64,000 nt of DNA, taken from the NCBI GenBank assembly GCA_018267285.1, contig JAFDYU010000007.1, forward strand, positions 62,206-126,205, in the 5' to 3' direction. The first letter of the stretch is position 1. Each line of letters opens with the position of its first letter. The stretch comes from Bacteroidota bacterium (GTDB taxonomy: Bacteria; Bacteroidota; Bacteroidia; Cytophagales; Cyclobacteriaceae). Below the pieces are notes generated by a model. That model was not told the origin of the DNA, did no database searches, and worked only from the letters and a program-made list of their open reading frames with translations. Both the position numbers and the translations under genes were made by a program. This document shows, piece after piece, positions 45,468 to 48,632 of this stretch.

Positions 45468-45698
45468 ATGAAAACGGTGGAACTGAGAACCAGCATTCAT
45501 AAGATTGTAGATTCAATTGAAAGTGAGCAATTATTAAAAACCATTTATGATTTTTTAAAAGTAAGGGAGAAATCCTCTTCGAGGCGTGTATGGGATTTTT
45601 TAACAGAAGAACAAAAAAATGAAGTGATTTCAGCTTTTGATGAATCTGAAGACGAAAATAACCTTGTCGACCCCAAAACTGTTTTTCAAAAAGATTGA
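45468..45698 (+). CDS. Orphan type II antitoxin-like protein
   Basis: A 76-aa protein with an N-terminal helical region (ELRTSIHKIVDSIESEQLL), a basic linker and an acidic C-terminus (FDESEDENNLVDPKTVFQK). This layout is that of a Bacteroidota antitoxin family usually followed by a RelE/ParE toxin. Here the stop codon overlaps an ATG (ATGA at 45698) that opens an 11-codon frame MRVFLTNRGAL and then stops. That looks like the first codons of a lost toxin. The functional toxin is absent; lysA follows. Confidence 0.65.
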   Translation: MKTVELRTSIHKIVDSIESEQLLKTIYDFLKVREKSSSRRVWDFLTEEQKNEVISAFDESEDENNLVDPKTVFQKD

Positions 45699-45733
45699 TG
45701 AGGGTTTTCTTAACCAATCGAGGAGCTCTTTGA
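45698..45733 (+). pseudogene. Vestige of a toxin gene after the orphan antitoxin
   Basis: An ATG overlapping the antitoxin stop codon begins MRVFLTNRGAL and then TGA. RelE/ParE toxins often start with M-[KR]-[VI]-x-[LF]-T-x-x-A, so this could be the remaining 5' end of a deleted toxin. Only about 50 nt separate it from the lysA start. The reading is an inference from context and the short peptide. Confidence 0.3.
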
Positions 45734-45786
45734 TACAAGACGTCATCCGGAGAAAAAACCAACCTAAACTTAATTTTTTTTACCAA

Positions 45787-47019
45787 ATGGAATTAGTTAA
45801 CGGAACGTATGCGTTGCAGAGCATTGATGTGAAGTCGTTGGCCGGAGAATACGGCACTCCTCTTTATGTGTACGATGGCGAGAAAATAGTTGCCCAACTT
45901 CAACACTTGAAGAACGCTTTTTCGCAAAACACCCTGAAGGTTAAGTATGCCATGAAAGCGCTCAGCAACATTTCCATTTTAAAATTGCTGAAGAAGCAAG
46001 GCTCTGGCATTGATGCCGTTTCTATTTACGAAGCACACCTGGCACTACGCGCAGGATTTAAACCCGAAGATATTCAGTTCACACCCAATGGGGTTGACTT
46101 TAGTGAGATTACAGCCGGTGTTGAACTCGGTCTTTGCATCAACCTGGATAATCTTTCGGCTCTTGAAAAATTCGGAAAAAAATACGGGAACACTTATCCG
46201 TGTGGCCTTCGGCTTAACCCGCACATTATGGCAGGCGGAAACCTAAAAATTTCTACCGGGCATGCTGCTTCCAAATTTGGTATTTCGGTACATCAGTTGC
46301 CGCAAATCATTCAACTGATGAATCAATACAACATCAACATCAACGGACTGCACATGCACACCGGCTCGGAGATTACCGACACGGATGTGTATTTAAAAAT
46401 GGCCAATTTATTTTTTGATACTGCAGTACATTTTACCGAGTTGAAGTTCATCGACTTTGGCAGCGGATTTAAGGTAGCCTACAAAGAGGGCGATCGCATT
46501 ACAAACGTAGATGAGTTGGGCTTGCAACTGGGCAGAGCCTTCCGCGATTTTTGCAAAAAGTATGGAAGAATGCTGGAGTTGTGGATTGAGCCCGGAAAAT
46601 ACCTCGTGAGCGAAGCCGGCTATCTATTGGCGAACGTCAACGTGGTGAAAGCAACGCCCTCGGTAACTTTTGTGGGCGTGGACACCGGGCTAAACCACCT
46701 TATCCGCCCCATGATGTACGATGCGTATCATGAGATTGTAAATGTTTCGAACCCTAACGGAGAAAAAAAGATTTATACCGTGGTCGGAAATATTTGCGAA
46801 ACCGATACGATTGGAACAGACCGGAAATTGAATGAAGTGCGCGAAGGCGATCTGCTCGCCATAAAAAATGCAGGAGCCTACGGCTACTCGATGGCCTCCA
46901 ACTACAATTCGCGCTTGCGGCCGGCCGAAGTTTTAATTTGGAACGGCAAAGCACAACTCATCCGCAAACGAGAGACCCTGGAAGATTTATTGAACAATCA
47001 GGTTGAAGTAGAGATTTGA
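45787..47019 (+). CDS. lysA: Diaminopimelate decarboxylase
   Basis: A 410-aa fold-type III PLP enzyme. The PLP lysine is in VKYAMKALSN near residue 58. The HMHTGSEI segment near 195 and the glycine-rich phosphate site DFGSGFK near 228 bind the cofactor. EPGKYLV and the C-terminal CETDT with AGAYGYSMASNYNSR form the substrate site. It converts meso-diaminopimelate to lysine. The ATG at 45787 is chosen; an in-frame upstream start at 45637 lies inside the antitoxin gene and adds non-homologous residues. Downstream lies the repeat nest at 47.0 kb. Confidence 0.96.
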   Translation: MELVNGTYALQSIDVKSLAGEYGTPLYVYDGEKIVAQLQHLKNAFSQNTLKVKYAMKALSNISILKLLKKQGSGIDAVSIYEAHLALRAGFKPEDIQFTPNGVDFSEITAGVELGLCINLDNLSALEKFGKKYGNTYPCGLRLNPHIMAGGNLKISTGHAASKFGISVHQLPQIIQLMNQYNININGLHMHTGSEITDTDVYLKMANLFFDTAVHFTELKFIDFGSGFKVAYKEGDRITNVDELGLQLGRAFRDFCKKYGRMLELWIEPGKYLVSEAGYLLANVNVVKATPSVTFVGVDTGLNHLIRPMMYDAYHEIVNVSNPNGEKKIYTVVGNICETDTIGTDRKLNEVREGDLLAIKNAGAYGYSMASNYNSRLRPAEVLIWNGKAQLIRKRETLEDLLNNQVEVEI

Positions 47020-47076
47020 AAATTTAGGTTGGAACTCACGGAGTTTACCTAAGTGCGATTCTGGCTTTTTGGAAGT

Positions 47077-47099
47077 CCGTCTTCGACAAGCTCAGACTG
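47077..47099. repeat. REP-like hairpin R1
   Basis: Stem CCGTCT / AGACTG (one mismatch) around the 11-nt loop TCGACAAGCTC. It is the first of nine related hairpins surrounding the GIY-YIG gene. Confidence 0.85.
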
Positions 47100-47126
47100 A
47101 AATTTATACTTTTTTATGGAACCATT

Positions 47127-47173
47127 ACTCTTAGCTTGTCGAAGGGAATGTCACCCTGAGCTTGTCGAAGGGT
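47127..47173. repeat. REP-like hairpins R2 (decayed) and R3
   Basis: R2 (about 47127-47146) keeps the loop core AGCTTGTCGA and the right stem AGGG, but its left stem has decayed to CTCTT. R3 (47153-47173) is intact: stem ACCCT / AGGGT with the 11-nt loop GAGCTTGTCGA. Both have the same orientation. Confidence 0.8.
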
Positions 47174-47203
47174 TATCAGTGCGATACTATTTTTTCGTAG
47201 CCT

Positions 47204-47273
47204 GTCATGCTGAGCTTGTCGAAGCACGACATGATTTTATTTTTTAGAGGCAGTCTTCGACAGGCTCAGACTG
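47204..47273. repeat. REP-like inverted pair R4-R5, upstream of the GIY-YIG gene
   Basis: R4 (47204-47230) has stem GTCATGCT / AGCACGAC with one A-C mismatch and loop GAGCTTGTCGA. R5 (47251-47273) has stem CAGTCT / AGACTG and loop TCGACAGGCTC, the opposite orientation. A 20-nt spacer (ATGATTTTATTTTTTAGAGG) separates them. An almost identical pair lies downstream of the gene at 47675-47747, so the gene is bracketed by direct copies of a 70-75 bp unit. Confidence 0.9.
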
Positions 47274-47317
47274 ACAATGAACCCCGAACAGAATATAATA
47301 TTATTTTACCTTTGAGA

Positions 47318-47638
47318 ATGTCCTTCAACAGAAATTATTTTGTTTACATCGTGGAGTGCTCGGATGGCCTGTACTATACCGGAGTAACAAATGATTTGGA
47401 CAGGCGAATATCAGAACACAATGAGGGCATTCACCCGAAAAGCTTTACTTTCAAGAGAAGACCCGTAAAACTAAAATACTGGCTTCGTTTTAGCGATGTC
47501 AATCAGGCTATTGATTGGGAAAAACAACTGAAAGGCTGGGGAAGAAAAAAGAAAGAAGCCCTGTTTAAAGAAGATTGGGAGTCAATCAAAAAATTGGCAA
47601 GGAGTAAAGGGAGTCAGTCTTCGACAGGCTCAGACTGA
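47318..47638 (+). CDS. Single-domain GIY-YIG nuclease embedded in REP-like repeats
   Basis: A 106-aa protein of the GIY-YIG superfamily. FVYIVECSDGLYYTGVTNDLDRR shows the two strands (VYI and YYTG) and the catalytic Arg. EHN follows, and DWEKQLKGWGRKKK carries the metal-binding Glu. It would be an Mg-dependent DNA endonuclease, as in UvrC-type domains and YhbQ-like proteins. The ATG at 47318 is chosen because the 37 in-frame codons upstream are merely the translated repeat. A perfect -7 element TACCTTTG lies 3 nt before the ATG. The last residues (SQSSTGSD) and the stop codon are encoded by repeat R6. The host or mobile role is unknown. Confidence 0.9.
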   Translation: MSFNRNYFVYIVECSDGLYYTGVTNDLDRRISEHNEGIHPKSFTFKRRPVKLKYWLRFSDVNQAIDWEKQLKGWGRKKKEALFKEDWESIKKLARSKGSQSSTGSD

Positions 47639-47639
47639 C
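47613..47639. repeat. REP-like hairpin R6, overlapping the 3' end of the GIY-YIG gene
   Basis: A perfect 8-bp stem GTCAGTCT / AGACTGAC with loop TCGACAGGCTC. The TGA stop codon of the GIY-YIG gene (47636-47638) lies in the right arm, so gene and repeat are physically fused. Confidence 0.9.
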
Positions 47640-47674
47640 AATGCTAATTTCTGATAAGACAATAAATGAAAAAT

Positions 47675-47747
47675 GTCATGCTGAGCTTGTCGAAGCACGA
47701 CTTGATTTTATTTTTTAGAAGTCTGTCTTCGACAGGCTCAGACTGAC
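47675..47747. repeat. REP-like inverted pair R7-R8, downstream of the GIY-YIG gene
   Basis: R7 (47675-47701) is identical to R4 over its whole length. R8 (47721-47747) has stem GTCTGTCT / AGACTGAC with one T-T mismatch and loop TCGACAGGCTC, like R5. The spacer again reads TTGATTTTATTTTTTAGA. It is a near copy of the upstream pair, in the same orientation. Confidence 0.9.
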
Positions 47748-47762
47748 AAGATCAAATAGTGT

Positions 47763-47785
47763 CACCCTGAGCTTGTCGAAGGGTG
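47763..47785. repeat. REP-like hairpin R9, next to the hydrolase stop codon
   Basis: Stem CACCCT / AGGGTG with loop GAGCTTGTCGA. It ends 4 nt before the stop codon of the convergent dienelactone hydrolase gene, so it may also act as that gene's transcript end. Confidence 0.88.
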
Positions 47786-47789
47786 GTGG

Positions 47790-48632
47790 TTATTTTAATC
47801 TCGCCTTAAAAAAAGCAATCGAATTTTTATACGCATCGGCCGCGGCTTCTTTGTTGTGTTTCGGGTTGCTGGGGTTGGCAAAAGCGTGGTCGGCATCGTA
47901 CGATTTTACCGTCAGTTTTTTTCCAACGGCTTTCATATTCGCTTCAAATTTTGAGGTTACATCTTTATTGATCCATTGATCTTGTGTGGCAAAGATGTCG
48001 AGCACATCGCAATTCAATCCTTTCAGCCGATCGAGGTTCTCTTCGGGCATTCCATAATAAATAACACAAGCCACAGCTTGGCTTCCGGCCGTAAGCGCAG
48101 CCTGCATGGACTGACCCCCGCCAAAACACCAGCCAATCGTTCCTATTTTAGCTTTGCTGCCCACGTAAGCCATTGCTCCTTTTACAATAGCAGTACCACG
48201 TTCTTGCTTAAACTCTTGCATGTATTTGCCCGCGTCTTTACCGTTGGTGGCCACTTTGCCATCGTACATATCGAGCGCCAGTACATTAACATTCCCTAAA
48301 TCGTTGTATATAGTTTCGGCTTCGCGCTTGATGTTGTCGTTCAGTCCCCACCACTCCTGAAAAACAAAAACCCAGTTGTCCGATTTTTTCTTGGATTCAA
48401 TTAAATAAGCATTTGCTTCTGCCGCATCGGTTTTTATTTTTATCATCCGGCCACCGGCTTCGCTTACGTGCGTGTAAAAAAGAGGTTGAGGATGAGCGCT
48501 GTTAAATTTTTTGTTGGACGCAAAGAGGGCAAACTTCTCGGTAGAAGGAGTGTGACAAACCGTTGGTTCGGACTGAGCCATTATTTTCGAGCAGACGAAA
48601 ATCAATGCGAGCAATGAAATTACTTTTGCCAT
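47790..48632 (-). CDS. Exported dienelactone hydrolase family protein
   Basis: A 280-aa alpha/beta hydrolase with a signal peptide (cleavage near KIMAQ). FVFQEWWGLNDNIKREAE holds the DLH Glu, the nucleophile Cys is in IGWCFGGGQSM near residue 170, and the catalytic Asp and His are in FATQDQWI and DADHAFANPSNP. DLH proteins hydrolyse lactones or esters; the presence of a signal peptide suggests a periplasmic substrate. Its 3' end abuts repeat R9. Confidence 0.9.
   Translation of the reverse strand: MAKVISLLALIFVCSKIMAQSEPTVCHTPSTEKFALFASNKKFNSAHPQPLFYTHVSEAGGRMIKIKTDAAEANAYLIESKKKSDNWVFVFQEWWGLNDNIKREAETIYNDLGNVNVLALDMYDGKVATNGKDAGKYMQEFKQERGTAIVKGAMAYVGSKAKIGTIGWCFGGGQSMQAALTAGSQAVACVIYYGMPEENLDRLKGLNCDVLDIFATQDQWINKDVTSKFEANMKAVGKKLTVKSYDADHAFANPSNPKHNKEAAADAYKNSIAFFKARLK

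Follow-up and report, generated by a model that had tools for sequence, protein, structure and literature searches.

Small GIY-YIG nuclease genes are paired with sequence-matched, tagged hairpin repeats in Cytophagales and other bacteria

Here, we report that single-domain GIY-YIG nuclease genes of about 100 codons lie among short tagged hairpin repeats in many bacterial phyla, and that the repeats and the nucleases they surround change together in sequence. The analysis is centered on one such locus in a 64,000-nucleotide stretch of a Cyclobacteriaceae genome (GCA_018267285.1, contig C23; hereafter, the window). We have hardly any doubt that the pairing of gene and repeats is real, general, and sequence-matched: it is observed here and in many phyla, together with co-variation of repeat and protein, covariation within the repeat stem, and, at a conserved gene junction, presence or absence of the island as a whole. 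We also think it probable, with clear reservations, that the nuclease is the dedicated partner enzyme of the tagged repeats and thus the missing partner of CGTC-type REPs. Cleavage and mobilization of the repeats by the nuclease would be part of this partnership.

In the window, the gene and its repeats fill the space between two convergent host ORFs (Table 1). The preliminary description proposed a nest of nine hairpin repeats, four of them upstream. The core CTTCGACARGCTCAG indeed occurs nine times around the gene, once with one mismatch; one copy lies over the 3' end, as described, and three lie downstream, but five copies lie upstream. As the core at the 3' end overlaps the gene, the final codons (SSTGSD) fall within a repeat. 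An alternative in-frame start at 47207 gives a longer ORF (47207-47638, 143 aa), and since this reading begins within repeat R4, both protein ends could be repeat-encoded. The two dimers, one on each side of the gene, are direct repeats of each other with three mismatches and one inner gap.

Table 1. Features of the repeat island and its host flanks in the window. Strands of R1 to R9 give the orientation with the tag at the 5' end; core positions refer to CTTCGACARGCTCAG.
Feature	Coordinates	Strand	Core position (strand)	Basis or remark
Left host flank ORF, presumably lysA (diaminopimelate decarboxylase-like)	45637..47019	+		ORF list, homologs in relatives
Island between two convergent host ORFs	47020..47789	.		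770-bp gap; aligned protein ends 776 bp apart
R1, degenerate tag (TTTC)	47077..47100	-	47081 (+)	core and covariation alignment
R2, degenerate, no TGTC tag	47121..47147	+	47130 (-, one mismatch)	core search
R3, TGTC-ACCCT-GAGCTTGTCGA-AGGGT	47149..47173	+	47156 (-)	covariation alignment
Dimer 1 (R4-spacer-R5), ~75 bp	47203..47277	.		direct repeat of 47674-47749
R4, ATG-type stem, left half of dimer 1	47203..47229	+	47210 (-)	covariation, direct-repeat comparison
R5, AGT-type stem, right half of dimer 1, tags outward	47249..47277	-	47255 (+)	covariation, direct-repeat comparison
GIY-YIG nuclease gene, single-domain, 106 aa	47318..47638	+		PF01541; predicted fold nearest UPF0213 proteins, then SLX1
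R6, AGT-type stem, overlaps gene 3' end	47612..47641	-	47619 (+)	best hairpin of the nine, z -3.0
Dimer 2 (R7-spacer-R8)	47674..47749	.		direct repeat of dimer 1
R7, ATG-type stem, left half of dimer 2	47674..47698	+	47681 (-)	covariation, direct-repeat comparison
R8, AGT-type stem, right half of dimer 2	47720..47750	-	47727 (+)	covariation, direct-repeat comparison
R9, TGTC-ACCCT-GAGCTTGTCGA-AGGGT, identical to R3 over 25 nt	47760..47784	+	47767 (-)	covariation alignment
Right host flank ORF, presumably DLH (dienelactone-hydrolase-like)	47790..48632	-		ORF list, homologs in relatives

The clustering of cores at the gene is not due to chance. Across the genome (3,330,647 bases) the exact core occurs nine times, eight of them within 701 bp around the gene and the ninth as a lone copy at C18:141123, whereas the reversed control sequence is absent. 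When up to two mismatches are allowed in the 14-base core, 62 genomic sites are found versus 16 for the control, so degenerate copies probably exist elsewhere in the genome too.

Written with the tag first, the consensus of the window repeat is TGTC-A-NN-CTGAGCYTGTCGAAG-N'N', in which NN varies by copy (CC, TG, or GT) and the partner bases change along with it. In a set of 17 distinct copies, drawn from the window and a first group of loci, the two core-adjacent stem positions pair in 17 and 16 cases, whereas shuffling gives means of 5.8 and at most 12; positions farther out from the core show no covariation. A related form, CTGAGC N3-4 GCGAAG, pairs in 38 and 39 of 40 distinct copies, compared to shuffle maxima of 24 and 37. 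On our reading, the conserved GAG and CGA would oppose each other in the hairpin as G-A and A-G mismatches. Folding of the nine repeats as single-stranded DNA is weak (z of -2 or below in two, no better than the shuffle mean in two others). Because most single copies fold weakly, it is covariation and not stability that supports the stem; folding energies alone do not support nine stable hairpins. The TGTC tag is present in seven of the eight exact-core copies in the window. It is not strictly unpaired, however: its C stands opposite a G in 12 of the 17 distinct copies, without covariation, and the tag of R6 becomes part of the folded stem.

The gene itself is complete, as originally described, and its 106-aa product matches PF01541 (E 1.8e-17 in a profile search). 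Residues Y10, Y20, G22, R30, H34, and E68 are invariant across 23 aligned GIY-YIG rows; the domain match and the conserved Tyr, Gly, Arg, and Glu, residues with catalytic roles in such nucleases, place the protein within this family. The nearest solved structures by sequence are the UPF0213 proteins 1zg2 and 1ywl, followed by phage endonuclease II and SLX1 (E 0.007-0.02). Fold comparison of the predicted model (pLDDT 85.9) likewise ranks 1zg2 and 1ywl first; SLX1, which acts on branched DNA as a nuclease, comes next (E 0.007 and up). As there is no separate DNA-binding domain, recognition would have to reside in about 100 residues, and a nuclease that reads structure would be well matched to repeats that keep their shape although the stem sequence varies. 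By both sequence and fold, the protein belongs to the same single-domain family as the UPF0213 GIY-YIG proteins (1zg2, 1ywl, and YazA), to which the names YhbQ and COG2827 also apply. GIY-YIG chemistry also serves DNA mobility in homing endonucleases and in the endonucleases of Penelope elements, a role in common with the one proposed here. Unlike those enzymes, the window gene has no intron, separate DNA-binding domain, or adjoining reverse transcriptase that we could see, and its partner is a short hairpin repeat.

Whole elements are present in some genomes and absent from others at two gene junctions. A homing endonuclease cuts an allele that has no copy of it and is then copied in, and sites without the element exist at both junctions. 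The right-hand host gene of the window has relatives at E<=1e-30 in 38 of 58 genomes, and 30 of these loci were fetched. Both host genes fall within the fetched stretch at four: in the window, where 776 bp separate the aligned proteins, and in three genomes of the same genus, where 23-29 bp separate them and the island is absent (the other 26 are uninformative on island presence, the left-hand gene lying outside the stretch). Gain of the island in the window lineage would be the simplest reading of these alignments, with loss in the relatives as the alternative. At the second junction, in the genus of a Winogradskyella record (L087), yraN and nadD are both in the stretch at all 30 fetched loci. 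A GIY-YIG gene lies between them in only two, L192 (the genome of L087 itself) and L202, whose elements share the ends TGTCATTCTG...CAGAATGACA; the other 28 loci gave no GIY-YIG match at E 1e-6. Three loci (L211, L213, and L218) carry a short palindrome, ATTCTG...CAGAATGAC, between yraN and nadD, which resembles both element ends joined and is possibly a remnant. No target-site duplication was found at either junction. On plasmid AZO_p3 of Azospirillum lipoferum 4B (L222, 1351-1969), sufB and sufC are separated by a GIY-YIG gene that is flanked on either side by a CGTC REP dimer. The homolog of this strain is WP_014249537.1.

We then compared repeats and nucleases across genomes. Among 30 GIY-YIG loci from the 58 genomes, a window-type core (at most one mismatch) is present at six and absent at 24. 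The six comprise a broken copy in G047 and the five loci that best match the window protein in the 58 genomes (238 to 75 bits; its own genome G000, G006, G020, G029, and G019), and all six have a core within 300 bp. Five of the 24 loci without this core have a different repeat, GTCATTGCGA. The five genomes of the window clade, delimited by a 70-bit cut that was set after the scores were seen, hold 9, 7, 4, 7, and 7 exact cores; one or more are found in 17 of the other 53 (rank p 0.0004, one-sided, with the own genome counted). The expectation that repeat sequence and nuclease clade co-vary was borne out more broadly: over 137 loci (9,316 pairs), flank similarity and protein similarity are correlated with a Mantel rho of 0.349, compared to a largest value of 0.09 in 500 permutations and to 0.046 for DNA 0.9-1.4 kb away.

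The pairing extends far beyond these genomes. We examined the best-scoring 80 of at least 529 confirmed loci, one genome per species and not a random draw, whose record titles include Bacteroidetes, Chloroflexi, Cyanobacteria, Clostridiales, Nitrospirae, Delta- and Gammaproteobacteria, Elusimicrobiota, Omnitrophota, and Terriglobia, among others. The 300-bp flanks share a repeat (within-locus rank p<=0.05) at 56 of the 73 loci with at least 20 controls and miss this level at 17; of the remainder, six fell short of 20 controls and L094 gave no score. By type, the same test is passed by 46 of the 73 loci for inverted repeats alone, by 45 for direct repeats alone, and by 36 for the YGTCA count.

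Hairpins tagged with GTC were counted in the same 80 loci. At least one is found at 55 loci (vs 212 of 717 ORFs) and at least two at 43 (vs 52 of 717), with densities of 3.13 per kb at the GIY-YIG loci and 0.69 at the ORFs; for six other tags, two or more hairpins occur at no more than nine loci. They stand within 200 bp on both sides of the gene at 28 of 79 loci compared to 10 of 626 control ORFs, and with tags outward at 18 of 79 compared to three of 626. In other sets, both-side hairpins were seen at 17 of 29 Pseudomonadota loci, at six of 25 repeat-group relatives without tRNA genes, and at two of 25 tRNA-linked GIY-YIG genes, which serve as an internal negative. In L079 and L087 the gene lies between the inverted arms TGTCATTCTGA...GAAGAATC. 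A pattern scan with a 4-base loop, which shows dispersed copies only and passes over the 3-base loops seen, for example, in L079 and L087, detected 55 copies in nine of 30 genomes and none of the control pattern. As to the proposed check of whether genes of this subfamily are always flanked by the same repeats, flanking is frequent, both in close homologs and across many phyla, but not universal: 37 of the 80 loci have fewer than two tagged hairpins. A further sign of this is that 60 of 161 GIY-YIG loci were labeled 'none'.

Some of the repeats belong to a published class. According to the available text of a 2013 survey by Di Nocera et al., CGTC REPs form a superfamily beside the RAYT-borne GTAG REPs and are "apparently" without a dedicated transposase; Neisseria CGTC-1 is equated there with dRS3, and A. 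lipoferum is named (PMC3733652). Of the 299 genomes in Pseudomonadota (our name for the GTDB phylum to which the Gammaproteobacteria record L106 belongs), 92 contain a GIY-YIG match at E<=1e-8. Of 30 fetched loci (the query's own included), 22 have at least two GTC hairpins, at a density of 3.97 per kb near the gene and 1.17 beyond 600 bp. One of the six control tags, GAT, is also raised (19 of 30 loci; 3.51 vs 1.54 per kb), probably because the same hairpins are being viewed from their tail side. Five loci (L175, L179, L182, L187, and L188) carry an exact CGTC-1 REP, [CT]GTCATTCCCGCGNNNGCGGGAATCCA, in inverted orientation on both sides of the gene. The layout there is a CGTC tag (TGTC upstream in L175 and L179), a ATTCCCGC stem, a 4-nt loop, and a CCA tail, and these are CGTC REPs by the published description of a CGTC tag, an 8-bp stem starting with AT, a 4-nt loop, and a CCA tail (PMC3733652, available text). 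L176 has a CGTC-1 REP on one side and a ATCCCCGC variant on the other.

The window repeats resemble CGTC REPs in being short tagged hairpins that occur singly or as dimers with outward tags; the survey text describes no dedicated enzyme for CGTC REPs, whereas the window repeats adjoin a GIY-YIG gene (PMC3733652). With a TGTC tag, a shorter stem, an 11-nt inside bearing GAG and CGA, and no CCA tail, they fit none of the four families described there. Nor do their stem, loop, and tail match those of the superfamily (an 8-9-bp stem starting with two A-T pairs, a 4-5-nt loop, and a CCA-like tail), as the second stem position also varies. The superfamily tag, CGTC or a variant such as TGTC or CCTC, stands unpaired at one end; most exact-core copies in the window have TGTC, with the partial pairing noted above.

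Twelve named loci, chosen from 45 match rows of plasmid searches and including that of A. lipoferum 4B, were inspected individually. In a Neisseria gonorrhoeae record, CGTCATTCCCGC repeats flank the gene on both sides. Related repeats lie on both sides in Shinella and, by eye, in Sphingobium, and Spirosoma has TGTCATCC, of an unlike type, on both sides. Repeats are unclear or one-sided in S. meliloti, M. aquaticum, Photobacterium, and S. parapaucimobilis, and no convincing ones were seen in R. tumorigenes or at the yazA genes of B. subtilis and E. gallinarum. The two yazA genes, of the same UPF0213 family as the repeat-flanked window gene, have a conserved gene context.

Across the 299 Pseudomonadota genomes, REPs and nuclease also co-occur. 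A GIY-YIG match is found in 17 of 25 genomes with at least five exact CGTC-1 copies and in 75 of the 274 others (odds ratio 5.6, p 0.00007). This cut is one of four tried; at 1, 2, and 10 copies or more the odds ratios are 2.7, 3.8, and 4.1 (p 0.0014, 0.0002, and 0.007). No GIY-YIG match at E<=1e-8 was detected in 25 of 50 REP-positive genomes or in eight of the 25 with at least five copies, including G252 (71 copies) and G124 (69). Incomplete genomes, gene loss, a more distant GIY-YIG gene, or another enzyme could account for these cases.

The partnership of repeat and enzyme that the preliminary description proposed therefore stands as an association: close homologs share the repeat, the two co-vary, and the pairing recurs in many phyla and with known CGTC REPs. 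To explain it, we suggest a family of small mobile or homing-like elements to which the island, a GIY-YIG gene bracketed by its cognate tagged hairpins, would belong as an autonomous member and the scattered repeat copies as non-autonomous ones. The nuclease would recognize the repeat as a folded hairpin, with its YGTC tag, variable stem, and conserved GAG...CGA inside, and may cut there, after which host repair could copy gene and repeats to new sites. The simplest account of how such elements would move is a cut at the hairpin and subsequent repair or copying. Several observations weigh against this explanation: repeat-rich genomes in which no gene was detected, the loci that lack two tagged hairpins or a shared flank repeat, the raised GAT tag in Pseudomonadota, the yazA and R. 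tumorigenes genes without convincing repeats, and the weak folding of most single hairpins.

Alternatively, a free-standing homing endonuclease with a target preference may simply land on pre-existing REPs that are spread by something else. We consider this unlikely but deserving of serious attention, as insertion or recombination at repeats predicts that the gene should often lie between direct repeats, as it does in the direct-repeat test above and between the dimers of the window. Repeats are also abundant in some genomes in which no such gene was detected: G017 has 24 window-type copies and GIY-YIG matches of only 25.6-26.8 bits (no close homolog), and the eight REP-rich Pseudomonadota are a similar case. 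Such genomes are one half of what had been named in advance as evidence against a partnership; the other half, a lack of association between gene position and repeats, is contradicted by the data. Landing on pre-existing repeats is difficult to reconcile with the co-variation of repeat and protein sequence and with the location of eight of the nine exact cores of the window genome at the gene.

A role of the repeats as terminators or regulatory RNA hairpins, serving the gene and its neighbors and amplified by local duplication, seems improbable to us. The position of the island between convergent genes and the direct duplication of the dimers would agree with such a role, but outward-tagged hairpins recur at this type of gene across phyla, far above ORF controls, and no Rfam family reaches its gathering score at the locus. 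The five weak Rfam matches (the best with 27 of 97 bits) were rejected as an RNA-family identity and are read as inverted repeats fitting by chance.

A comparison with REPtrons, in which a RAYT Y1 gene is associated with GTAG REPs, is instructive. In both systems a small DNA-processing gene is bracketed by its own REPs, repeat copies are dispersed, and repeat and enzyme are matched. They differ in the enzyme, as the flanked gene here belongs to PF01541 and is unrelated to HUH/Y1 proteins, and in the tag, which is TGTC or CGTC at the GIY-YIG loci instead of GTAG. Consistent with the earlier statement that no Y1 transposase is visible in the window, no PF01797 match was found anywhere on contig C23. 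RAYT-type Y1 transposases could in principle move the repeats in trans, making the GIY-YIG gene incidental: the window genome has five PF01797 matches (on C6, C12, C17, and C24), and 44 of the 58 genomes searched have some. We rejected this reading as very improbable, because none of the five shares a contig with the exact cores, which lie on C18 and C23, and because G006 and G017 have window-type cores and no PF01797 match. In the available text of the 2013 survey, moreover, no tyrosine transposase gene is flanked by CGTC repeats (PMC3733652). Least probable of all is that the gene encodes a domesticated, structure-specific nuclease for the removal of lesions caused by hairpins and is kept close to REPs by chance or regulation, for although the SLX1-like predicted fold and the repeat-free yazA genes are compatible with it, the presence/absence at junctions, the suf-operon copy, and the in-frame stops in the gene copies of G029 and G047 look mobile.

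If the nuclease is indeed the partner enzyme of the repeats, a sequence-matched GIY-YIG protein would answer the question of the CGTC REP enzyme left open in the 2013 survey, as far as its available text goes (PMC3733652). A second, unrelated enzyme class would join REP biology, and many small genes whose sole annotation is 'GIY-YIG nuclease family protein' would gain a suggested role. Judged by titles and the starts of abstracts, no GIY-YIG/REP link appears among the literature matches listed, which cover few subscription papers or preprints. In the available text of one study, RayT and a GIY-YIG gene are both among clade-specific genes and are not linked to each other (PMC9465073), and that of a 2025 REP survey has no word starting with 'transposase', 'nuclease', or 'RAYT' (PMC12306157). 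Searches with the repeat letters (10-14-mers) listed no paper relevant by title, except for one on meningococcal transcripts.

Distant GIY-YIG relatives in the same genomes adjoin tRNA genes. This is the case at 17 of 20 low-scoring loci fetched from a longer list, always with the tRNA gene within 300 bp of the GIY-YIG gene, while none of 23 better-scoring loci has a tRNA gene in the stretch. Overall, 25 of 161 loci carry the tRNA label, and none of these is within L052-L131 or L163-L191. On a tree of 159 proteins, which is built from few columns and leaves 75 of 155 inner branches open, the label requires six changes compared to a shuffled mean of 22.8, and none of 500 shuffles is as low. A broader proposal, which we offer tentatively and would not yet bet on, is that hydrolytic, hairpin-reading GIY-YIG nucleases of ~100 residues drive a whole prokaryotic class of mobile elements. 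This class would explain the orphan CGTC and TGTC REPs in many phyla, and a sister group of the nucleases would target tRNA genes. Under that proposal, the tRNA-targeting sister group would suggest a common principle, the recognition of a folded nucleic acid rather than a linear site. The single-domain GIY-YIG genes that adjoin tRNA genes do so with tRNA genes of many kinds (L031, L039, L040, L048-L051, L234, L236, L237, L239, L240, and L242-L253). In the genome of the window, two loci (L003, 1-1049, on contig 11 of G000; L009, 1310-2477, on contig 14) each have three tandem GIY-YIG units that alternate with fragments of tRNA-Pro or tRNA-Ser, and an intact tRNA-Ser(tga) closes the L009 array.
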